Assembly: GCA_022782265.1 (NCBI GenBank)
Contig: JALFOM010000022.1
Coordinates: 1-64,000, forward strand
DNA length: 64,000 nt
Direction of reading: 5' to 3'
Source of the DNA: Clostridiales bacterium
Lineage (GTDB): Bacteria > Bacillota > Clostridia > Oscillospirales > Oscillospiraceae
Shown here: positions 2,119 through 15,805 of the stretch, piece after piece
How positions within the stretch are numbered: the first letter of the stretch is position 1
Layout: each line of letters starts with the position of its first letter
Program-made: the position numbers and the translations under genes
Notes under the pieces: generated by a model
The model's input: the letters and a program-made list of their open reading frames with translations, nothing else
Databases searched by the model: none
Told to the model about the DNA's origin: nothing

Positions 2119-2931
2119 ATATTTAATCCTCCATAACAGAAATTTTCTGCTATGTATTTCTTTTACGCAACAACTGACATGAAATTTTACCATATTTTTG
2201 GAGGAAAATCAACGTTTTGCAAATAATTTAACAGAATTTGCTTTAGCAGAATTTGCTCTGGAAAAGCCTCCGAAACCATTTCTGATTTGGTGACGCTGTA
2301 GTCTTAAGAAATTCAATAATTAAGTCAACAGGACAAGAAGATGTATTCATCTTATCCAGCAAAATTATCTCTTGATTAATTACGAACACCCCTGCCGTAA
2401 ACGATATGTAGTAGGGGGAATATACCCTCTGCTGCACCTTGAAAAATGAACAGACGGTACTCCAGAACATACCTTTGCAAGGAGCCGAAAGAGCTATCGC
2501 CGTGACCGGGACGCAGTTCTCACAGCGAAAGCATAGCGGATTGAAGGGAACCAGACCAGTTCCTGAGCCACGATCTGCAGAGGGTACAATGATACTTCCG
2601 TTAATCTGAGGACGGCGGATTCGCACACCGAGCCGGATGGCTATGATCTCTCTGGTCAAGAGATTTGGAGTATGCCCCAGAGCCGATCCCGGGCCATTAG
2701 AATATAGGGGTTGGCAGCCTGGTCTGTTTGGTAAGAGGCATCAAATATAGGTACCAGCCCGTATGGAAATAATAAGGACAAAACTGCTGTTTTACGCTGC
2801 TGCAAGCGAACAGATACCCTGAAAAGAGTTGAAAAAAGGGCATCCAGAACCAGGATGCCGCTGTCTGCAATTATTTTTTTGTTTCTTACTTGACAATGGG
2901 CTATCCCTGTGCAGTAAAAGCAAAAAAATCT

Positions 2932-3039
2932 GCCGTTAAAAATACCGGGAGTGAGGATGACTCTGCGGCTTAGCGGGCTTTACCTGCTGAAGTGCGGCCA
3001 TCGGCCGGAGAAACTCCTTCTCCCGGTATTTTTAACGGC
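2932..3039. repeat. 108-bp element bounded by 20-bp perfect inverted repeats (MITE-like or structured RNA)
   Basis: gccgttaaaaataccgggag (2932-2951) and its exact reverse complement ctcccggtatttttaacggc (3020-3039); further hairpins inside. Confidence 0.7.
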
Positions 3040-3117
3040 AAATCCATGCAGCAAACGAAAGATTATACCTTTACAAGATACAAATAATGGTATAAAATTA
3101 AATCACCTTAAAGATAA

Positions 3118-3312
3118 TATCATTTATTTTCGTGTTTTTCTGATACTCTGCATAATTTGCAGCTTTTGCGGCATAATTTGCACACTGCGGCCGCGGGAAA
3201 GCGGATGCTGCAAGAGCTTACGGAAGAATACGGCGGAAGCCTGAACCAGGAGGATAAAGACGGGCGGTTCCATGCGAAATTGATTTTAAGATGTGGGGCG
3301 GATAGTCAATGA
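3118..3312 (+). pseudogene. C-terminal relic of a GHKL-type sensor histidine kinase
   Basis: Frame ends ...GKRMLQELTEEYGGSLNQEDKDGRFHAKLILRCGADSQ*, resembling the terminal part of a GHKL ATPase domain; TGA overlaps the ATG of the next response regulator; upstream frame closed by stops at 3085, 3109 and 3115. Confidence 0.55.
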
Positions 3313-4028
3313 TACATATCGCCATATGTGATGACGACGGCGTACAGATAAAAAAGACCGAAAAGCTTATCCGGCAAAAGGCAGCGCGGTTCTCCCCGGA
3401 GACAGATCTGTTTTCCGATGGCGCCGGGTTGATCAAAGCCGTTAAAAATGGGGGCTATACGCCTGACTTGGCCGTTCTGGACATCCATATGCCCGGGAAC
3501 AGCGGGATAGATGTGGCAAAAACGCTGAACCTGCTTACTCCGGAATGCAGGATCATCTTTCTCACCAGCTTTCTGGGCTACGCTACGGAGGTGTATGAGA
3601 CCCGCCACAGCTATTTCATCTTAAAATCCGAGCTGCCCGACAGAATAGACGCTGCCCTGACAAAGGCGCTGGAGGACAGGGCGCAGGAACCGCGTCTGCG
3701 CTTCCGCGAGGGGCGGACCATACAGACAGCGGCGGTATCTGAGTTTCTGTATCTGGAACGGATTCTGAAAAAGACGGCCGTCGTCCTTTGCAACGGCAGT
3801 AAACATTTTACGGCAGCGAAAGCAGAGGAAGTGCTGAAGGACGTGCCGCCGGGCTGCTTTGTCCGCTGCCACCAGAGCTTTTGGGTAAATACAGAAAAGA
3901 TCGCAAGTATGAAATCGGAGAGCTTCGTCCTGCTCAACGGGGAGGAGATTCCCATAAGCCGCAGCCGGAAAAAGGAGGCAAAGGAAGCCTTCTTTGCCCA
4001 GCTTGAACGGCAGGCGGAGGCCAGATAA
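3309..4028 (+). CDS. LytTR-family response regulator
   Basis: REC domain MIHIAICDDD, AVLDIHMPGNSGIDVA, FLTSF; C-terminal LytTR FLYLERILKKTAVVL...FVRCHQSFWVNTEKI. Confidence 0.92.
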   Translation: MIHIAICDDDGVQIKKTEKLIRQKAARFSPETDLFSDGAGLIKAVKNGGYTPDLAVLDIHMPGNSGIDVAKTLNLLTPECRIIFLTSFLGYATEVYETRHSYFILKSELPDRIDAALTKALEDRAQEPRLRFREGRTIQTAAVSEFLYLERILKKTAVVLCNGSKHFTAAKAEEVLKDVPPGCFVRCHQSFWVNTEKIASMKSESFVLLNGEEIPISRSRKKEAKEAFFAQLERQAEAR

Positions 4029-4066
4029 AAAAGTCACTCTGAGTTTACCCTCAGAGTGACTTTTTT
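4027..4066. terminator. Bidirectional Rho-independent terminator
   Basis: aaaaaagtcactctgag-tttacc-ctcagagtgactttttt. Confidence 0.9.
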
Positions 4067-4089
4067 AATGCACATTGAACCTGCCGGCG

Positions 4090-4992
4090 TCACAAAGCCA
4101 GCTGTATTCTCCGGCGGAGATAGCCCTCCCGGACACCGTAACGGCTGACCGCAATATCGGATACCCGGTAGCGTTCAACCAGATACCTCAGGAGCATCAG
4201 ACCGGGGATCAGCGTGTGGATGCGCTCCGGCTCATAGCGCAAAATCAGATCGGCGGCGTCCTTATCCGCTTTGCAGAGCCGCTCCGTCAGCTGCTCCAGC
4301 TGCTCACGGGTGAAGCTGCGGCTGCTTTCCGGCAGACCGAAAAGACTTTTGCTCAGCCGCAGGGCCGCCCGGGCTGTGCCGCCCACACAGACCAGATGGT
4401 CCATGGCCGGGATGTCTTTCAGCTCGTCACCCGCAAAGGCGGCCCGGATCGCGTCCGTTATCCGCTGCTGGGAGCCTTTTCCCGGCAGAATATTTTTTAC
4501 GCAGTCTCGGTACAGCTTCAGTGAGCCTACAGGCACGCTCCCGGCCTTTTGCAGCTGTCCGCCGGTGAGCAGGGCCAGCTCCGTGCTGGCGCCGCCGATG
4601 TCCCCGAACAGCCCCTCAGCCAGTTCCGTGTCGCAGACAGCGCCGTAAAAGCCGCATTCGGCCTCGGCCTCGCCGGAGAGAACCTCCACCTCCACGCCGG
4701 TCTCCTGCCGGATCTGCTCCACGGCCTGGCTGGTGTTGGAGATGTTCCGCAGGGAGGCGGTGGCAAATACCGCCAGATGCCCGATATGGAGAAGCTCCAG
4801 GGTGGTCTGAAATTCCCGCAGGCTGCGGCAGGCGCAGTCGATACCGTCCTGGGTCAGCCGACCATGCTCCACATAGCCCGCCAGTCCTGCCATGATCTTT
4901 TCCTTGAACAGGATCTTGAAGCCGCTTTTATCCAGGTCATAGACCGTAAGGCGGATGCTGTTGGACCCCATGTCGATCAATGCGTATTTCAT
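4090..4992 (-). CDS. ppx: Ppx/GppA phosphatase family (exopolyphosphatase)
   Basis: MKYALIDMGSNSIRLTVYDL, FATASLRNISN, GDIGGASTELAL. Confidence 0.9.
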   Translation of the reverse strand: MKYALIDMGSNSIRLTVYDLDKSGFKILFKEKIMAGLAGYVEHGRLTQDGIDCACRSLREFQTTLELLHIGHLAVFATASLRNISNTSQAVEQIRQETGVEVEVLSGEAEAECGFYGAVCDTELAEGLFGDIGGASTELALLTGGQLQKAGSVPVGSLKLYRDCVKNILPGKGSQQRITDAIRAAFAGDELKDIPAMDHLVCVGGTARAALRLSKSLFGLPESSRSFTREQLEQLTERLCKADKDAADLILRYEPERIHTLIPGLMLLRYLVERYRVSDIAVSRYGVREGYLRRRIQLAL

Positions 4993-5013
4993 GTGTGTCG
5001 CTCCATTGAAAAG

Positions 5014-7149
5014 TTACTTTTTCCCCTTCCGGAAGGCCGAAAGCAGCCAGCTTCGCAGCTGCCGGGGCTTTTCCGGAGAGACCGGAACCGCCGGTGCGGC
5101 TTCCACCGGCTCCGCTGCCTGCTGATAGGCCTGCCGGTAGAAAAACTCCTGGCAATTCAGCGGCGTGGCGTCATTTCGCACGTGAATATACTCCCCGGTA
5201 TTTTTCAGCTCCCGGGCCTGCTGGTTATCCTGCAGCATGGTCCGGAACATCTCCGTTAGCCGCCGGCGCAGTCCGGCGTCCAGAATGGGGGCGGCAACCT
5301 CCACCCGCCGCAGGGTGTTGCGGGTCATAAAGTCGGCGGAGGCGATATAGACGCTCTGCCGGCCCTCTGTGCCGAAGATATAGATGCGGGAGTGTTCCAG
5401 AAAGCGGCCCACGATGCTGATGACCCGGATGTTTTCCGTCTCTCCCGGCACGCCGGGCAGCAGGCAGCAGATGCCGCGGACCACCAGGTCGATCTTCACG
5501 CCCTCCTGAGAGGCCAGAATCAGCCGGTCGATGATGGTCTTGTCGGTAAGAGAGTTGATTTTTATGCCGATATAGGCCGGCTCGCCCTTTCGGGCACAGG
5601 CGATCTCCCGGTCGATCAGCGCCAGTACCCGGTTCTGCAGACATTTGGGCGCCACCAGCAACTGCTGGGAGTCCTCCACGGTCTCGCCCATGGCCAGGGC
5701 CTGAAATACTGCGGCGGCCTCCATTCCGATAGCCGGGTCCGCCGTCATCAGGGACAGGTCTGTGTAAAGCCGCGCCGTCTTCTCGTTGTAGTTGCCGGTG
5801 CCGATCTGGGTGTAATACTCGGTCTGCCCATCGGCCCGGCGGGTGACGAGACACAGCTTGCAGTGGACCTTATAGCCGTCCAGCCCGTAGATGACCTGAC
5901 AGCCGGCCTCCTCCAGACGGCGGGACCATTCGATGTTGTTCTCCTCGTCAAAGCGGGCTTTCAGCTCCACCAGCACCAGAACGTTCTTGCCGTATTCCGC
6001 TGCCTCGATCAGGCTTTCCACAATCTTGCTGTGCCTGGCTACCCGGTAAAGGGTCATTTTGATGGACACCACGTTTGGGTCGCTTGCTGCCTCCTGAAGA
6101 AAATCCAGAAAGGGCTTCATGCTCTCAAAGGGATAGGAGAGCAGCTTGTCCCCCTCTTTGATCTGGGGCATCACAGCGCAATGGGGACGAAACTGAGCAG
6201 AGCGCTGAGGAAAGCGTTTTTCATAGAAAAGCGCGGGGTTCTGCCGCAGAGAGTCCTGTATCTGAGACAGGAAGGACAGGTCCAGCGGCGAACGGCAGCG
6301 GAAAACCGCTTCCGGCTTCAGGTCCGTATAGGTGCACAGGGTCTCCACAATATCGCCGTCCAGCTCCCGGGACAGCTCCAGCCGCACCGGCGCCAGACGA
6401 CGGCGCTGTTTTATGAGCTGGGCCATAAACTCCCGGTAATCCAGATCCTCGTCATAGAGAGCATCGGCGTCGATATCGGCGTTTCGCGTTACCCGGATCA
6501 GGGATTTGGAGACAACCCGGTGGCTGCTGAACACCTTGGGCAGGAAATGGAGAATCAGCTCCTCCGAAAGCATCATGGCGCCCGGCTGCCCGGGCACGCG
6601 GATGAGCCGGGGAAAGACCCCGGTGCCGCAGGGGATAATGCCCAGCTTTTCCCCGCCGTTTTTTCCGGCCAGCACGCCTACGGCGTAGATCTCCTTGTTT
6701 TGCAGGAAGGGGAAGGGCTGCCGCTTACTCACCACGGTGGGCGAGAGCAGCGGCGCGATCTCCGCGTCAAAATACCGCTCCAGCTCGCCGCTCTCCCGCT
6801 CTCCGATTTTCTGAAAATTGACCAGGCGGACGCCCTGCTCCTCCAGACGGCTCATCAGCGCGGCATAGACCGCGTCCCGCCTCCGGTTCAGCCGGGAGAC
6901 TTCCTTCAATATGGCGCTGATTTGCTCGGCAGCGGTCATCCGGGTCTTGTTGTCCCGCAGATCTCTGGACACCAGCATCTGGTCCTCCAGTGAGCCCACC
7001 CGCACCATGAAAAACTCGTCCAGATTGCTCTGAAAAATGGAGGCAAAGCCAAGCCGCTCGCACAGGGGCACGCTCTCGCTTTCTGCCTCCTCAAGGACCC
7101 GTTCGTTGAATTTCAGCCAGGACAGCTCCCGGTTTATATATGTGTTCAT
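5014..7149 (-). CDS. ppk1: Polyphosphate kinase 1
   Basis: NRELSWLKFNERVLEEA, FMVRVGSLEDQ, MTLYRVARHSKIVESLIEAAEYGKNVLVLVELKARFDEENNI, IGTGNYNEKTARLYTDLSL. Confidence 0.97.
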   Translation of the reverse strand: MNTYINRELSWLKFNERVLEEAESESVPLCERLGFASIFQSNLDEFFMVRVGSLEDQMLVSRDLRDNKTRMTAAEQISAILKEVSRLNRRRDAVYAALMSRLEEQGVRLVNFQKIGERESGELERYFDAEIAPLLSPTVVSKRQPFPFLQNKEIYAVGVLAGKNGGEKLGIIPCGTGVFPRLIRVPGQPGAMMLSEELILHFLPKVFSSHRVVSKSLIRVTRNADIDADALYDEDLDYREFMAQLIKQRRRLAPVRLELSRELDGDIVETLCTYTDLKPEAVFRCRSPLDLSFLSQIQDSLRQNPALFYEKRFPQRSAQFRPHCAVMPQIKEGDKLLSYPFESMKPFLDFLQEAASDPNVVSIKMTLYRVARHSKIVESLIEAAEYGKNVLVLVELKARFDEENNIEWSRRLEEAGCQVIYGLDGYKVHCKLCLVTRRADGQTEYYTQIGTGNYNEKTARLYTDLSLMTADPAIGMEAAAVFQALAMGETVEDSQQLLVAPKCLQNRVLALIDREIACARKGEPAYIGIKINSLTDKTIIDRLILASQEGVKIDLVVRGICCLLPGVPGETENIRVISIVGRFLEHSRIYIFGTEGRQSVYIASADFMTRNTLRRVEVAAPILDAGLRRRLTEMFRTMLQDNQQARELKNTGEYIHVRNDATPLNCQEFFYRQAYQQAAEPVEAAPAVPVSPEKPRQLRSWLLSAFRKGKK

Positions 7150-7287
7150 CCCAAGCCCACTCTTTTCCTGTTTATGACCACCAGTATACGAAAAAGCGCA
7201 TTTGCCCGATACCGCCGCCCGGTAAACTCTCTGTCAAATGATCGTAAAATATTTTTCCCGGTTAAGGCAGTAAGAATACGAAAGGCA

Positions 7288-7329
7288 AAAAAATCACCCG
7301 GCCTCTTTCCGGAGAGCGGGTGATTTTTT
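7288..7329 (-). terminator. Rho-independent terminator
   Basis: aaatcacccg...cgggtgattttttg inverted repeat downstream of the serine hydrolase gene. Confidence 0.75.
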
Positions 7330-7338
7330 GTATGGATT

Positions 7339-8097
7339 TTATGCGTTGTACAGGTCCAGCGCCAGCTGACGGAGCGTCCGCTCCGCCTGGGGCACATCGG
7401 GGCCGTTGTAAGCAAAGCAGAGCACGAAAGGCTCCTTGGCAAAGACGATGCCCACGTCATTGGTGATACCGTCGTCCTCGCCGGTCTTGTGGGCCACAGG
7501 CGTGCCCTCCGGCAGATAGCCGGGGATCTTGTGGTTGATCTGCTGCGCTAAAAGCAGCTTTTCCATCTCTGCGCTGACCGTTTCGGAGACAAAGTGCCGC
7601 TGGGCGATCTGCGCAAGGAGGGCGCCGATCTCCTCCGGGACGATCCTGTTTTCCAGACCCCGGGCCGCGGCCTCGCCGTCAAAGAGCAGGCGCTCCAGAT
7701 GGGTCTTTTCCAGGCCGATCTGCTTGAACTGTTCGTTGAGAAAGTCCAGGCCGAAGCGGCGCAGCAGCAGATTGGTGGCTGCATTGTCGGACAGGGAGAT
7801 CATCAGCCCGCACAGGGTGCGGATATCCACCGTTACCTCTCCGGTGAAGAAATACAGCGCGCCGCAGGGGGGCAGCTTATCTTCCTCCCTGCAGATAAGC
7901 TTTTCCGAGAGGTCAATCTGTCCCTCCGCCGCCAGCTTCATGATCACGGCGTAGACCGGAAGCTTGATAACACTGGCGGCCAGAAACTCTTCCTGCTGAT
8001 GAAGGCCGAAGCTCTCGCCTGTTCGCAGATTCTTATAGAAGAAGCCGACGCGGCCGGGGAGCTGCTCAAGCCGGAATACGATCTCTTTTTTATCCAT
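7339..8097 (-). CDS. Class A beta-lactamase-related serine hydrolase
   Basis: SVIK (SxxK), SLSDNAA (SDN), AHKTGEDDG (KTG). Confidence 0.85.
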   Translation of the reverse strand: MDKKEIVFRLEQLPGRVGFFYKNLRTGESFGLHQQEEFLAASVIKLPVYAVIMKLAAEGQIDLSEKLICREEDKLPPCGALYFFTGEVTVDIRTLCGLMISLSDNAATNLLLRRFGLDFLNEQFKQIGLEKTHLERLLFDGEAAARGLENRIVPEEIGALLAQIAQRHFVSETVSAEMEKLLLAQQINHKIPGYLPEGTPVAHKTGEDDGITNDVGIVFAKEPFVLCFAYNGPDVPQAERTLRQLALDLYNA

Positions 8098-8103
8098 AGC
8101 GGC

Positions 8104-9648
8104 TCAGTTGTCGATCTTGTCCGTGTCGTACTCCACACAGCCGTTGATCTTACGGAAGATGAAATAGAAGGGGACGCAGACCGCGATGATGATCAGCCCC
8201 TTGAGAGAGGGGATGGGGTCAGAGACAAAGTTGTTCACCAGCAAAATGACAAAGAGGATGATGGTGACGATGATGGTGGGGATGCCGCCCCAGACCTTGT
8301 AGGGACGCTCCATATCCGGGTACTTCTTGCGGAAGACCAGCACGGCGATGATACCCAGGAGGTTGATCAATGCGCTGACGGTGATGAGCCAGTCGGTCAG
8401 CTCCTGAAGGCTCTGGAACAGGACCAGCACGACAGCCAGGGCAGAGGAGGCCAGAATGGCGTTGGCAGGCACGCCATTGTCGTTGACCTTGCCCATGGAC
8501 TTGAAGAAGTAGCCGCCCTTGGACATGGCGTAGTAGGTGCGGGGGAAGACCAGGCAGTCGCCGTTGACGGTGCCGATAATGCCGATGAACATGCCGATGA
8601 GCACGATCCACTTGCCCACGTTGCCCACCATAACGCCGGGGTGGCTGTAGGCCAGGTCTACCTCATCCTGCCGCATCACATAGCAGATGGTCATACACGC
8701 CGGAAAATCCCGGCGGGTCTCGTCGAAGATCTCTTTCGTGCAGCGCTGTCCTTTGTACTTCCCCTCGGCCAGCTCCACCGCGTCATAGCCGCATTGGTAG
8801 CGCTCGCGCCAGCCCTCATCATAGGTGGCGGAGCCCAGGTTGGTGGAAAAGGCGGCGTAGGGGTAGCAGTCGCAGCCGATACGGGGCTCCAACAGGCGGT
8901 AGCTGTCGATCAGACCCAGAAACGCCTCCATCTGGCCAAAGCCTGCCATGCTCCCGATATGGGAAACCTCCATGGGCACCCCCAGGCGCAGGCCCGCGTC
9001 CAGAAACTCCCGCGCCGCGTCGAAAACGAAGCCTGCGTCGTCCCGGATATGGGCTGCCACTAATTTGCCGTGTTTTGCCGCGCCTGCCGCCGTTTCCAGC
9101 AGCTCCTGAATGTCCATGCCCGGCACATAGCGGATGCCGTAGGACACGCCGGCACAGCCCCGCTCCAGACTTTTTTCGATCTCCCGGGCCATTTCCGCTT
9201 TCTGCTCTTTCGTGGCGGCGGCGTAATTGTCTGTGCAGCCCGCCTGATGGCGGAAATATTCGTGCCCGGCCAGCATCGCCACGTTTACCGGAACACCGTC
9301 CCGGTCTGCAAGGTCCAGGTAGTCGGCAGGATGGAATTTGTTCTCCCCGCAGTTTCCCGCCACGGCGGTGGTCACGCCCATGCGCAGCATACAGGGGAAA
9401 ATGGAGTGTTCGCTGTATGCGTCGATGGTCCCGTCAGCCGTCACCGGGTCTTCGTGCATGTGGATGTCAATGAAGCCGGGACAGACGACCCTGCCCTCCG
9501 CGTCAATGACCTGCTCCGCACGGCTTTCCGCTTCTCTTGCCGCCGGGCCGACTGCCGCCACGCGCCCATCCTCGACCAGCAGATCCTGCTGGGAGTTCAC
9601 CTTTGCGGCAGGGTCGATCACATGGCCGTTTTTGATCAGAATCCTCAT
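8104..9648 (-). CDS. Chimeric ORF: N-acyl-D-amino-acid deacylase-type amidohydrolase (N-terminal ~340 aa) fused in frame to an APC amino-acid permease C-terminus (~174 aa)
   Basis: N-terminal IKNGHVIDPAAKVNSQQDLLVEDGRV...GFIDIHMHEDP...VSHIGSMAGFGQME...HPGVMVG; C-terminal GKWIVLIGMFIGIIGTVNGDCLVFPRTYYAMSKGGYFFKSMGKVN...FRKKYPDMERPYKVWGG; join at 8612-8630. Confidence 0.85.
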   Translation of the reverse strand: MRILIKNGHVIDPAAKVNSQQDLLVEDGRVAAVGPAAREAESRAEQVIDAEGRVVCPGFIDIHMHEDPVTADGTIDAYSEHSIFPCMLRMGVTTAVAGNCGENKFHPADYLDLADRDGVPVNVAMLAGHEYFRHQAGCTDNYAAATKEQKAEMAREIEKSLERGCAGVSYGIRYVPGMDIQELLETAAGAAKHGKLVAAHIRDDAGFVFDAAREFLDAGLRLGVPMEVSHIGSMAGFGQMEAFLGLIDSYRLLEPRIGCDCYPYAAFSTNLGSATYDEGWRERYQCGYDAVELAEGKYKGQRCTKEIFDETRRDFPACMTICYVMRQDEVDLAYSHPGVMVGNVGKWIVLIGMFIGIIGTVNGDCLVFPRTYYAMSKGGYFFKSMGKVNDNGVPANAILASSALAVVLVLFQSLQELTDWLITVSALINLLGIIAVLVFRKKYPDMERPYKVWGGIPTIIVTIILFVILLVNNFVSDPIPSLKGLIIIAVCVPFYFIFRKINGCVEYDTDKIDN

Positions 9649-9671
9649 TGTGTTTAACCCTCTCCATAAAC

Positions 9672-9699
9672 AAAAAGAACCGCTTTTTTTGAAGCGGTC
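9672..9699 (-). terminator. Terminator of the lysine riboswitch expression platform
   Basis: Minus strand: gaccgcttcaaaaaaagcggttctttttg. Confidence 0.8.
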
Positions 9700-9734
9700 C
9701 TGTACCCGGGAGCATCTCTTACTCCCGGTATATT

Positions 9735-9898
9735 CAGTAGCGCTCCACAAAATGTGACAGTCCTGCAGATATTCTCCGCAGACCCAGCATGGAAAGCACA
9801 GGCATGCTTTCAACACTTCGGCGATGGCCCCTTTCGCTTATTTCGGCTGCCTGACCTGAACAATAAGCTACTGATGGACACCGCGCCTCTACCTCGTG
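9735..9898 (-). promoter_or_regulatory. Lysine riboswitch (L-box) aptamer
   Basis: Minus strand: GAGGTAGAGGCGC...AGTAGCTTATT...GCCGAAATAAGCGAAAGGGGCCATCGCCGAAG...CATGCTGGGTCTGCGG...GACTGTCACATTTTGTGGAGCGCTACTG; matches the ordered conserved segments of the lysine riboswitch. Confidence 0.93.
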
Positions 9899-10049
9899 TG
9901 TGAAATTGGGCATATATTAGCACGCTAAATCATGCTTGCCAATCATAAATTTTTTGTTTCCGGGAAAAATTCGGGAATTTTCGCGGAAAATCCCGCAAAA
10001 AGGCAGAAAAACCGCAGGGCGAAAGGATACACCCCACGGTTTTTCGCCA

Positions 10050-11159
10050 TTATTGGGATAAATTCAGGCACCACACATGGTCTGTGCGGTATTTGCCGTC
10101 GCTGTAGGCCATGGCGCCGGATTCAAACAGGACAAGCACGCTGCCGTCCCGACCTGTGCACAGGGCCTCCGTCATGGGCATGGCGGTGATGGCCTCCCGC
10201 AGAACGCTGCTGTCCAGAATGTAGGCCGGGACCTCGCGGTTCCCCACCGGGACAGAGCCATCCGCCCGGTTCAGATCCAGATCATAGCGCAGCAGCGTGG
10301 AGTTGTTCTTGCGGCCGTAGGACTGGCTCAGCAGTACCGTGCCGTCATCGCAGAAGACCATGCCCTGAATACGGTCCGGGGCCACCAGCACATAGTCCGG
10401 GGCAGGGGCCGTGCCGGTATCGCCGCCCAGGGTGCCGCCGCGCAGATCATAGCCCAGAATATAGCAGCCGTATTCGCCGTCTGCCGTCTCCGTTGTGAAG
10501 TTCATGCCGGCGGACAGGCCGTAGTCTGCGGAGGGGTGATAGAAATTGCCCACCCAGAGGATGTCCTGAGAGTAATTCAGGAAGGAAGGAGAAACCGGCA
10601 GGGACACGGCTTTTTCCACAGTGATGTCGTGGCTGCCCTCTGCGGGAAGGCTTTCAAGAGGAATAACGGCTATGCTGTAGCTGCCGTCGTTATCCAGCTT
10701 CGCAGAGACGTAAAGATTGTCTCCCGCCGCGGCAAGCCCGCCCACATGGCTGGTAAAGGGGCTGCCGTCAGCATTATAAAGCCGGTACTCTGCCACGAGG
10801 GTTCCGCTCGACCCGTCAAGAGCCATAATCACAGAGGGGACGGCGTCTGTTTTGTAGTAGGCGGAGAGATAGACCAGACCGGAGCTTTCGCACCGGCTCA
10901 TGCCCTGGGGGATGGCGGCCTCATTCAGACCGGGGATCAGGTAGCTTTTTTCCGCCCGGGAGAGGAAATCCGCAAACTCATCTCTGCCCAGATATTTTTC
11001 GGAGGAGACGGAGGGCGTCTGGTTGAGGCGAAGGCCGTTTCCGTCACCATTTTCGGCCGGCTGGGTCTCCCCGGCGGGCTGCGCCGCCGTGCCGCCGCAG
11101 CCGCACAGCAGACAGAGGCACAGGAACATGACGCAGATGCGCAGCATTTGTTTTTTCAT
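10050..11159 (-). CDS. Predicted lipoprotein, unknown function
   Basis: Signal/lipobox MKKQMLRICVMFLCLCLLCGCGG; no confidently recognised domain, possible beta-propeller. Confidence 0.65.
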   Translation of the reverse strand: MKKQMLRICVMFLCLCLLCGCGGTAAQPAGETQPAENGDGNGLRLNQTPSVSSEKYLGRDEFADFLSRAEKSYLIPGLNEAAIPQGMSRCESSGLVYLSAYYKTDAVPSVIMALDGSSGTLVAEYRLYNADGSPFTSHVGGLAAAGDNLYVSAKLDNDGSYSIAVIPLESLPAEGSHDITVEKAVSLPVSPSFLNYSQDILWVGNFYHPSADYGLSAGMNFTTETADGEYGCYILGYDLRGGTLGGDTGTAPAPDYVLVAPDRIQGMVFCDDGTVLLSQSYGRKNNSTLLRYDLDLNRADGSVPVGNREVPAYILDSSVLREAITAMPMTEALCTGRDGSVLVLFESGAMAYSDGKYRTDHVWCLNLSQ

Positions 11160-11163
11160 GTTT

Positions 11164-12207
11164 TTACTCTCCTTCCCCGGCACGGCAAACATTCGTCTCT
11201 CCCAGGGGATAAGCGCGGGTGTGCGCCTCTGTGCCGTCGGGACCAAACACGGAAAAATATACATAGGGGGCGCCGTCGGGGATGTTGAACTCCGCCTGAT
11301 CCACGGTTTCGCCGGGACGGGCACAGACGTTCTGCGTGCGCTTGGGGCTCATATGCATGATGATACGCCGGGCATCCGAGCAGCGCAGGGTCACATGCTT
11401 GTCCTCAAAGCGCAGTTCCCGGATCTCCGGCCCGGTGCTGGCGTAAAAGTCACCCCTATCCAGGGCCCGGATGATGGCCGGGTAGCTCAGCTCCGGCGCG
11501 ATAATCATGGTCCAGGCGCCGAAGGAGTCGCAGAGGGGGTCGCCGAAGGGGCGCTTGTTGTGGTTGTCGTCCGCGCCGTGGACATAGGGGAATTTGCCGT
11601 GGCGCAGAAGCCGGTCATACAGACCCAGATTGTTTTCGTGGCCGTTGATCACCATGGAGCCGGTGTTGAAAATCTCCAGGCTGAAAAAGCCGTCGTAGTG
11701 CAAAATCTCCTCCGGCTCCTCCATGGACCAGTTGGGGTGGTTGTAGGTGACCAGGTAGCCGGCTTTGTTTGCCTCCTGGATAAAGCGCCGGATATAATCC
11801 CGGTCATAGCGGCGGGGCCCGATCTTGCCGGCCTGCTCTCTGGATTCAGCCAGCCCATGGGGCATATACTTGCAGAAATTGGGGTCATAGGCCACAAAGC
11901 AGGTGTTGTGGGGCTCCCTGGCCAGCAGATTGAGATGGATCTCCGGCCCGTAGATATCCAGCTGGCAGTTGGATGAGGGGCGGATATAGGCCTCATACCC
12001 GGTGAGCATCAGAAAATCGGGGGTGCCGAGATCGGTATGGTCATAGGGGGCCTCGTGGTCGGTGATGGCCAGGATCGAATAGCCCCGGGCCTTATAGGCC
12101 TTTACCATGTCTTCCGGCGTAAGCCTGCCGTCGGACAGGTTGGAATGGCTGTGAAGATTCGCCTTGAACTGGGGCAGGTCAGGAGAAATGGGAGATTTAC
12201 AGTACAT
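11164..12207 (-). CDS. PHP-domain metal-dependent phosphoesterase
   Basis: FKANLHSHSNLSDGRLTPEDMVKAYKARGYSILAITDHE; YNHPNWSMEEPE; HGADDNHN. Confidence 0.88.
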   Translation of the reverse strand: MYCKSPISPDLPQFKANLHSHSNLSDGRLTPEDMVKAYKARGYSILAITDHEAPYDHTDLGTPDFLMLTGYEAYIRPSSNCQLDIYGPEIHLNLLAREPHNTCFVAYDPNFCKYMPHGLAESREQAGKIGPRRYDRDYIRRFIQEANKAGYLVTYNHPNWSMEEPEEILHYDGFFSLEIFNTGSMVINGHENNLGLYDRLLRHGKFPYVHGADDNHNKRPFGDPLCDSFGAWTMIIAPELSYPAIIRALDRGDFYASTGPEIRELRFEDKHVTLRCSDARRIIMHMSPKRTQNVCARPGETVDQAEFNIPDGAPYVYFSVFGPDGTEAHTRAYPLGETNVCRAGEGE

Positions 12208-12239
12208 AGATCAGGTTCCTTTCCTAACAACGGGGTCGG

Positions 12240-12269
12240 TTGACAAAAATCGGTTGTTGTTGCTATAAT
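12240..12269 (+). promoter_or_regulatory. Putative sigma-70-type promoter for the DeoR-family genes
   Basis: TTGACA, 18-nt spacer, TATAAT. Confidence 0.7.
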
Positions 12270-12294
12270 AAAATTTAATCATTTCCGGGGAGGG

Positions 12295-13044
12295 ATGAAT
12301 GTGCGTGAGCTTCGGTTGCTGGACATATTGGGGACAGTACGAGAAAAAGGCTACATGACAACACAGGAGCTGGCGGAGAAATTCGGCGTCAGCGTATCCA
12401 CCGTGCGGCGCGACCTGTCCGAACTGAATCGCCGGGGCATGGTTTCGGTCAGCAAAAACGGCGTTGTCCCCATATCGGAGACCATTGTGGACACCCCGGT
12501 CAGCTTCCGTTCTACGGTGAATACCCAGGCCAAGGCGCTCATCGCCCAAAACGCCCTGCAGCTGGTGAGCAGTGGAAGCATGATCTTTCTGGATTCATCA
12601 TCCACTGTGCTGCAGATGGTGAGCGGGCTGCGGAGCATGAGAAATATTGTTGTTGTTACCAACAGCCTGCCCGTGGCCACCCGCTTTCAGGGAAGCTCCG
12701 TGCCGGTCCACCTGATCGGCGGGGAGATGTCAGCCCTGTCCAAGGGCTTTTTCGGCCCGGCGGCGGAGGAGACCCTGCGCAGATTCAATTTTGACCTGGC
12801 CTTTTTCTCCCCTGTTGCGGTGACGCCCTTGGGCTTCGCTGCGGAAACCACGGCGAACGCGGCCTCCCTCCGCAGGGCCGCCATGGAACAGACCCAAAAC
12901 GCGGTGCTCCTGTTCGACCGCAGCAAGATCGGCCTGACGCGGCCCTACAACATCGCCCATCTGGACGCGTTCCGCTATCTGATCACTGACGATGAAAAGC
13001 ACCCGCTTGCCTCCAGAGCCGATGTAAGGCGGGTCCAGGCATAA
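12295..13044 (+). CDS. DeoR/GlpR family transcriptional regulator
   Basis: RLLDILGTVREKGYMTTQELAEKFGVSVSTVRRDLSELNRRGMV. Confidence 0.92.
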   Translation: MNVRELRLLDILGTVREKGYMTTQELAEKFGVSVSTVRRDLSELNRRGMVSVSKNGVVPISETIVDTPVSFRSTVNTQAKALIAQNALQLVSSGSMIFLDSSSTVLQMVSGLRSMRNIVVVTNSLPVATRFQGSSVPVHLIGGEMSALSKGFFGPAAEETLRRFNFDLAFFSPVAVTPLGFAAETTANAASLRRAAMEQTQNAVLLFDRSKIGLTRPYNIAHLDAFRYLITDDEKHPLASRADVRRVQA

Positions 13045-13067
13045 ATTCAGCGGGAAAGGGAAAAGCG

Positions 13068-13802
13068 ATGTCGGAAGAACGCCTTCAAAAAATTTTGCGG
13101 CTGATCGAGAGCAACCGCACCATATCCGCAAAGGAGCTGGAGGCCCAGCTTTATGTCAGCTCGGCCACCGTGCGCAGGGATCTGACCGAGCTGTCCCGCC
13201 GGGGGCTGATTGTCAGAAGCCACGGCAAGGCAATGGCAGTGACCCGGATGGCCCACGCCGTGACCCACGGCGGCCCGACTACCCCCGATGACCCCATCGG
13301 CGCTGCCGCTGCCGCGCTGGTCAAGCCCCACAGCATCATTTTTGTTGCTGCGGGCCGCTTCAGCCCGTCACTGGCAAAGGCGGTGAGCCGGGTTTCGGAT
13401 CTGACTGTGGTGACAGACAGCATGACCGTGGCGGACGCACTGTGCGGGCACGCCGCCCGTGTGTACTGCACCGGCGGCAATCAGCAGGCGGGGAGCGACG
13501 CCCTGTCCGGCGCTCAGGCGGCGGAGCTGGCGGGTCAATTTTACTACCACATGGCCTTTTTCAGCGGCGATTCCCTGACGGAAAGCGGGGATATCACGTT
13601 CTACAATTATGACCGCATATCTGTTCTCCGTTCGGTGGCCAGACACGCAGAGAAAAAAGTGCTGCTGTTTTCCCGGGAGCAGATGAACGCCGAGCCTGGC
13701 AGCGGACTGCTGCGTTTGATGGACATGGATTACATCGTCACGGATATCCCCAGCTATTTCAGCTCCGGCTATCACGGGGCGGTGATCAGCACAGGAGAAT
13801 GA
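13068..13802 (+). CDS. DeoR/GlpR family transcriptional regulator (tandem paralogue)
   Basis: ERLQKILRLIESNRTISAKELEAQLYVSSATVRRDLTELSRRGLI. Confidence 0.92.
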   Translation: MSEERLQKILRLIESNRTISAKELEAQLYVSSATVRRDLTELSRRGLIVRSHGKAMAVTRMAHAVTHGGPTTPDDPIGAAAAALVKPHSIIFVAAGRFSPSLAKAVSRVSDLTVVTDSMTVADALCGHAARVYCTGGNQQAGSDALSGAQAAELAGQFYYHMAFFSGDSLTESGDITFYNYDRISVLRSVARHAEKKVLLFSREQMNAEPGSGLLRLMDMDYIVTDIPSYFSSGYHGAVISTGE

Positions 13803-13807
13803 ACAAG

Positions 13808-13840
13808 CAAAGGCGCACCGCTTATGGCAGTGCGCCTTCA
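13808..13840. terminator. Terminator hairpin
   Basis: aaggcgca...tgcgcctt then cattttg. Confidence 0.6.
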
Positions 13841-13857
13841 TTTTGCCATTTGCCGGT

Positions 13858-14715
13858 TTACTTCATCGCCGCCTTGGAATATCCGGTCATCATATATTTC
13901 TGGAAGATCATAAACAGGATAATCAGCGGAAGCACAGCCAGAACGGCGCCGGCCATGATCTCATGGTAGTTGGACACCGCCTGTCCGGCGAAGGTGTTTT
14001 TCAGCTGTGCAAGGCCCACGGTAAGGACCCGGCGCACCTCGTTTTTGGCAATGATCTTAGGCCAGAAGTAGGCGTTCCAGCCGTTGGAGAAGGTCACCAG
14101 GGTGACGGTGAAGATGGTGGCTTTGCTCATGGGGACAAGGACGTTCCAGATAATGCCGAAGCGCCCCAGCCCGTCGATCCGCCCGGCGTCGATATAGCTC
14201 TGGTCGATGGCCATAAAAGAGTTTCGCATCATAAAGATGTAGTAGGCGGAAACAGCTTCCGGCAGGATCAGGCCCAGGAAGGTATCGGCCAGACCCCAGT
14301 TGGCGCACATGATGTAGATGGGGATAAAGGTCACCTGCAGGGGGATCATCAGCGCGCCCAGCACCAGGTAGAACATCACGTTGCGGCCCTTGAAGTTGCC
14401 GCAGGCGAAGCCGTAGGCGGCCAGAGTGCCGGTGCCCACCTGAAGGACCAGAATGCCGGCGGTCATAACGATGGTGTTCCAGTAGTACTTCAGGAAGTTG
14501 GCGCGGGTCAGAACGTTAAGATAGTTCTCCGGGTGGAAGCTGTGCGGGAACAGCGTGGGGATGACCCGCTGTACTTCCTCCGCAGACTTGACGGAGGTGG
14601 CCAGCATCCAGTACAGAGGGAAGAGCATGACGATGGTGATGATCACAGCCACAACCGTCTGGATATGATATCCGGCGCTGTGGTGCTTTTTCCGAATGGC
14701 AGTTTCAGGATTCAT
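13858..14715 (-). CDS. Carbohydrate-type ABC transporter permease (MalG/UgpE-like)
   Basis: FPLYWMLATSVKS; EAA loop YIDAGRIDGLGRFGIIWNVLVPMSKATI. Confidence 0.92.
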   Translation of the reverse strand: MNPETAIRKKHHSAGYHIQTVVAVIITIVMLFPLYWMLATSVKSAEEVQRVIPTLFPHSFHPENYLNVLTRANFLKYYWNTIVMTAGILVLQVGTGTLAAYGFACGNFKGRNVMFYLVLGALMIPLQVTFIPIYIMCANWGLADTFLGLILPEAVSAYYIFMMRNSFMAIDQSYIDAGRIDGLGRFGIIWNVLVPMSKATIFTVTLVTFSNGWNAYFWPKIIAKNEVRRVLTVGLAQLKNTFAGQAVSNYHEIMAGAVLAVLPLIILFMIFQKYMMTGYSKAAMK

Positions 14716-14731
14716 TTTTCTTCCCCCTCCC

Positions 14732-15685
14732 TTATGCGTCGTAGTTGACCGAGTTGTTGGAGTACTTCATGGTCGCCACGGTGATGCACAGCAGGATCAC
14801 AAAGAACATGACGGCGGAAGTGGCGGCACGGTCCATGCGGAAGTCCACCATGGCGTAGCGGTAAATCAGGTAGACAAACACTTCGGTGGAACGGGCGGGG
14901 CCGCCGGAAGTCAGAATATCCACAGACTGGAACACCTTCATGGAGCTGAGGAAGGTGGTGACCAGCAGGAACAGTGTGGTGGGAGAGAGCAGGGGCAGGG
15001 TGATCTTGAAGAACTGCTGCCTGCCGTTTGCGCCGTCCAGAGAGGCCGCCTCATAGTACTGGGGCGAAATGCCCATCATGGCCGACAGGTAGATCATCAT
15101 GCCATAGCCCAGAACACGCCAGCAGGTGGTCATCAGGACAGAGAGCAGAGCGGTGGACTCCTGGTTCAGCCAGTCCACGGGCTGCAGGCCGATGAGCTTG
15201 AGCATGTAGTTGAGCACACCGTAGTCGGTGTTCAGGATCCAGAGGAAGACCACAGCACAGGAGGACATGGCCACATATTTGGGCACAAACAGGATTGCTC
15301 TCATTGCGCTGAAGGAGCGGGTCATGCGCTTGAAGATCAGGGCAAAGATCATGCCGCCCACCATGGTGGCGAAGATCTCACCCAGGGAGTACAGGAAGGT
15401 CACCTTCAGGGAGTTCCAGAGGTACTTGGCGCCGGAGCCGGCAAAGAGCCACTTCCAGTTTTTCAGCCCGACAAAGTTCCATTCGGGCTTGAGCAGGTTC
15501 CAGTCGGTCAAGCTGATCTGGACCAGCTTGGCCACAGGGTAATAGGTAAAGACTGCGAGCAGAACCAGAGCCGGCACCACAAAGAGAAAGTCAACGAACT
15601 TGGCTTTCTGTCTCTGGGTAAGCCTGGGCTTTTTCTGCCCCGCCGGAGCCTGGGCCACGGCGGTTGTTGCGGTGACGTCGGTCAT
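14732..15685 (-). CDS. Carbohydrate-type ABC transporter permease (MalF/UgpA-like)
   Basis: FVVPALVLLAVFTYYPVAKLVQISLTDWNLL; YYEAASLDGANGRQQFFKITLPLLSPTTLF; start set at MTDVTATT. Confidence 0.9.
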   Translation of the reverse strand: MTDVTATTAVAQAPAGQKKPRLTQRQKAKFVDFLFVVPALVLLAVFTYYPVAKLVQISLTDWNLLKPEWNFVGLKNWKWLFAGSGAKYLWNSLKVTFLYSLGEIFATMVGGMIFALIFKRMTRSFSAMRAILFVPKYVAMSSCAVVFLWILNTDYGVLNYMLKLIGLQPVDWLNQESTALLSVLMTTCWRVLGYGMMIYLSAMMGISPQYYEAASLDGANGRQQFFKITLPLLSPTTLFLLVTTFLSSMKVFQSVDILTSGGPARSTEVFVYLIYRYAMVDFRMDRAATSAVMFFVILLCITVATMKYSNNSVNYDA

Positions 15686-15805
15686 AACAGTAAATCCTTT
15701 CTCTCCGATACGGCAGACTGTAGACAAAGCTATCGACAGTGTATAGAAATGCATGGGGAGAGTGCAGAGAGGGGACGGGAGTCCCCTTTCTGCGTTCAAT
15801 CCATG

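Follow-up and report, generated by a model that had tools for sequence, protein, structure and literature searches.

In the window (the whole 64,000-nucleotide stretch of DNA that was analysed), a single open frame on the minus strand encodes a protein of 514 aa, of which residues 1–342 belong to a D-aminoacylase-type amidohydrolase and residues 343–514 to the C-terminus of an APC permease. The frame runs from an ATG at 9648 to a stop at 8104–8106 without interruption, and contains neither a stop nor a frameshift. The switch falls exactly between GVMVG and NVGKW. The preliminary description had the frame and its architecture right, leaving only the strand unstated; it also placed the switch at NVGKW, with a permease end of about 174 aa that measures 172 aa. 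The features of the locus are listed in Table 1.

Table 1 Features of the fused gene and its surroundings (window coordinates)
Feature	Coordinates	Strand	Evidence
Fused ORF, amidohydrolase N-terminal part and permease C-terminal part in frame	8104..9648	-	ORF call, Pfam
Amidohydrolase remnant, codons 1-342 of about 457 in G012; keeps HMHED, NCG, HIRDD, SHIG	8623..9648	-	Alignment
Permease remnant, residues 294-465 of the intact 465-aa G012 permease; approximately the last five TM segments	8107..8622	-	Alignment, hydropathy
Deletion junction, TGGGCA microhomology	8622..8627	-	Comparison with G012 and tandem species
Downstream neighbour, beta-lactamase-family (Beta-lactamase2), intact, with a syntenic counterpart in G012; marks the edge of the altered region	7339..8097	-	Pfam, locus comparison
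Hairpin with T tail, like an intrinsic terminator; lies between riboswitch and start codon	9676..9701	-	Hairpin scan
Lysine riboswitch aptamer RF00168, directly upstream of the fused gene	9730..9899	-	Rfam, 113.1 bits, full length

Pfam assigns Amidohydro_3/Amidohydro_1 to residues 46–232 of the fused protein and AA_permease/AA_permease_2 to residues 340–491. Searches against the PDB give a match to each part: N-acyl-D-glutamate deacylase (PDB 3gip) matches up to residue 345, and an amino-acid transporter (PDB 6f2g) matches residues 342–504. The N-terminal part resembles the D-aminoacylase/N-acyl-D-glutamate deacylase branch of the amidohydrolase superfamily (PDB 1m7j, 1rjq, and 3gip; NF006560). 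Residues 340–504 align to the C-terminal part of the APC superfamily permeases (PF13520; 6f2g; NCBIfam L-type and FrlA).

Intact pair in relatives and the deletion junction

In a search of 60 relatives, both halves are found on one contig of a genome of the same genus, G012, with 91% identity for the hydrolase and 93% for the permease. The syntenic locus of G012 carries an intact amidohydrolase of 460 aa and, 35 nt further on the same strand, an intact permease of 465 aa. The gene order around the pair is the same in the two genomes, with ppk-like and beta-lactamase-family genes on one side and unassigned and PHP-domain genes on the other. BLAST alignment of the window with the G012 locus shows synteny across 2921–15710. 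Two of the blocks overlap at window positions 8619–8630, and the remains of the two genes are 1262 bp further apart in G012. The window differs from G012 by a single clean deletion of 1262 bp. This deletion would have taken the 3′ end of the hydrolase gene together with the short spacer between the genes and 63% of the permease gene, counted from its 5′ end.

Across the junction, the fused gene reads ATG GTG GGC AAC GTG GGC AAG. At the matching sites, the G012 hydrolase reads ATG GTC GGC AGC and the G012 permease reads ATG GGC AAT GTG GGC AAG. The microhomology lies between GTnGGCAGC of the hydrolase and ATGGGCAAY of the permease, and its length depends on the ancestral Val codon: GTG would give 6 bp (TGGGCA), and GTC, the codon of G012, 1 bp. 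The hydrolases of five of the seven species with the tandem pair have CTGGGCAG at the breakpoint site, indicating that TGGGCA is common there. The deletion probably arose by slippage or end-joining at this short microhomology. An 8-bp direct repeat at 8612–8628 (GTGGGCAA c GTGGGCAA) had been put forward as the deletion endpoint. The copy at 8612–8619, within VGK, is native permease sequence, and the copy at 8621–8628 straddles the join. Because one copy was created by the join itself, the repeat did not guide the deletion, and it is rejected as a recombination site. The exact 27-base junction was also sought in viral contigs, with no match.

The preliminary description had suggested aligning each half to homologues and looking for an intact pair in sister genomes. 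Such a tandem is present in G012 and in other relatives. Among 80 related GTDB loci, an intact permease directly follows the hydrolase in 7, the permeases being 76–100% identical to that of G012, and the fusion occurs in none. The hydrolase is found in 21 of 102 genomes of the genus. It lies close to the permease, as a separate match, in 7 of the 101 genomes other than the source, and the two are joined only in the source genome (fusion in 0 of 101). All 75 homologues checked end within 10 codons of the point where their alignment to the normal C-terminus runs out. No second, intact copy was found elsewhere in the source genome. The occurrence of an intact syntenic tandem, together with the absence of the fused form elsewhere in the search, supports the earlier proposal of a recent in-frame deletion between operon partners. 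It had also been considered that many homologues might share the full-length architecture, as expected of an established hydrolase–permease fusion family. That architecture is absent from all 80 GTDB loci and from all 101 other genomes of the genus, and a fusion family is rejected.

Losses in each half and the age of the fusion

The hydrolase part keeps the N-terminal metal-site motifs of the family, which comprise HxH, the Cys of GNCG, and two further His residues, as HMHED (at 63), NCG (at 99), HIRDD (at 200), and SHIG (at 229), as does the G012 hydrolase, and the motifs HxH, GNCG, HIRDD, and SHIG of the D-aminoacylase branch are all present in the fused frame. Unlike members of that branch, the fused frame has neither the invariant SDG Asp nor any of the C-terminal part. 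The segment of 3gip that matches MVGNVG is MVGSDG; the fused frame departs from the hydrolase right at the conserved Asp. In accordance with the claim that the hydrolase ends just before a conserved Asp-Gly segment, this residue (Asp344 in G012 numbering) is present in every one of 75 relatives (100%) but deleted here, along with 27 further hydrolase positions that are conserved at ≥95% in the same set. In view of the alignment with 3gip and the general features of the D-aminoacylase family, we take the Asp of SDG to be catalytic; a literature search on Asp366 of D-aminoacylase returned nothing.

The permease part has been described as lacking its first TM helices, and the comparison with G012 agrees: residues 1–293 of 465 are lost, only residues 294–465 are left, and the hydropathy of what remains corresponds to approximately the last five membrane segments. 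In contrast to APC superfamily permeases, the fused gene does not encode a complete 12-helix transporter of about 450–470 aa. Helices 1 and 6, which bind substrate in the APC fold, fall in the missing part. The chimera would thus combine a hydrolase part without its catalytic Asp and C-terminal remainder with a transporter part without its first seven or so helices. Given the loss of the invariant Asp, of the 27 near-invariant residues, and of the first 293 residues of the permease, and from knowledge of these folds, both hydrolase and transport activities are most likely lost, which would make the chimera a null allele.

The two remnants have dN/dS values like those of their neighbours: relative to G012, the hydrolase part has a value of 0.081 and the permease part one of 0.107, compared with 0.104 for ppk and 0.084 for bla2. 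Relative rates were counted at positions where the fused gene and G012 differ and one of them agrees with the consensus of relatives. In the hydrolase, the deviating residue belongs to the fused gene at 8 positions and to G012 at 8; in the permease, the counts are 5 and 3, respectively. Neither remnant has an excess of replacements, and both an old pseudogene and relaxed selection are rejected. Remnants without decay would mean that the deletion is recent relative to the split from G012, or limited to some strains and so polymorphic, or not real, in which case the chimera would lie in the assembly. Separately, the dS of the permease remnant relative to G012 (8107–8622, minus strand) is 0.29, lower than the 0.54–0.65 of the neighbouring genes, which could come from codon bias or local recombination.

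The open frame, the low dN/dS, and the intact riboswitch and terminator are also what would be seen if the chimera were a functional novel protein that is expressed and retained, serving for instance as a membrane-tethered domain for metal binding or scavenging. However, each half is missing segments that are either invariant among its relatives or required by the fold, and a low dN/dS is expected regardless, since most of the divergence from G012 may predate the deletion. The fusion was found in no other species searched, and nothing speaks positively for a tolerated novel membrane protein. A functional protein is therefore very improbable. Slighter still is the chance of the fuller version, namely a membrane protein that truly exists, is expressed under the control of the lysine riboswitch, and has its own function, its gene having been born by a single microhomology deletion.

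An assembly or library artefact deserves more weight, although we consider it unlikely. The organism would then have the intact pair, and the contig would join two strain variants or hold a chimeric read. A chimeric or strain-mixed contig is possible in a draft assembly of 157 contigs that is 82% complete and 4.3% contaminated, the fusion is known from one genome only, and the absence of relaxed selection in the remnants fits an artefact as well as a recent event. On the other hand, the longest exact word common to the hydrolase and permease genes of G012 is no more than 11 bp, and near the breakpoints there are only short words. A k-mer collapse (de Bruijn, usual k) is thus unlikely, the join had to exist in the reads, and we reject a repeat-driven collapse of the assembly. 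Besides, a strain variant might have left the missing piece in another part of the assembly, and none was found there.

We are fairly confident that the deletion is real. The complete reading, which we likewise regard as likely, is that a recent deletion of about 1.26 kb fused the remains of the hydrolase and the permease into one chimera that is most likely a null allele. We regard the fusion as a recent break confined to this genome, not as a novel type of protein. As a class, the event is ordinary: adjacent genes are fused by a deletion, most likely with loss of function in both.

Lysine riboswitch and the ancestral operon

The leader of the fused gene contains two elements that the preliminary description had missed, a lysine riboswitch and a terminator-like hairpin. 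The RF00168 match is on the same strand as the gene, covers model positions 1–182 of 182, and scores 113.1 bits against a gathering cut-off of 30. The G012 leader has the same arrangement of lysine riboswitch and terminator hairpin. In having a full-length aptamer followed by a terminator hairpin, the locus resembles lysine-riboswitch operons, and the deletion would have left an in-frame chimera behind an intact riboswitch. On the far side of the riboswitch, a strong terminator-like hairpin of 16 pairs (10006–10045, minus strand) lies just after the gene at 10050–11159 and separates that gene from the riboswitch operon.

Among the 14 loci scanned, a lysine riboswitch is also found upstream at L071, where the hydrolase occurs without this permease, the next genes encoding a peptidase S58 and a solute-binding protein. 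Of the seven GTDB tandem loci, only that of G012 has a lysine riboswitch; none was found at the other six. The source genome has one other lysine riboswitch, which precedes genes for a solute-binding protein and an ABC transporter. The intact G012 permease scores over its whole length against the NCBIfam models of L-type and FrlA (fructoselysine) transporters, below their cut-offs.

For Thermotogales, amidohydrolase genes are listed within lysine-riboswitch operons of lysine biosynthesis (PMC5584792). Unlike those operons, the one described here has a deacylase-type amidohydrolase as its first gene, followed by a permease, and has no lysine biosynthesis genes. This composition suggests that the ancestral operon, under control of the lysine riboswitch, was a salvage operon repressed by lysine. 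A reasonable reading, as far as gene content can tell, is that it would take up and hydrolyse acylated or otherwise modified lysine and be shut off by lysine. Under lysine scarcity, the operon would probably have taken in a lysine-containing compound and hydrolysed it.

If the deletion is real, the locus is a clean case of gene loss in progress, with remnants as yet undecayed and with a readable ancestral pair, deletion, and junction. The regulatory context is more useful than the chimera itself: the combination of a deacylase-type amidohydrolase and a permease downstream of a lysine riboswitch suggests a lysine-repressed salvage operon.
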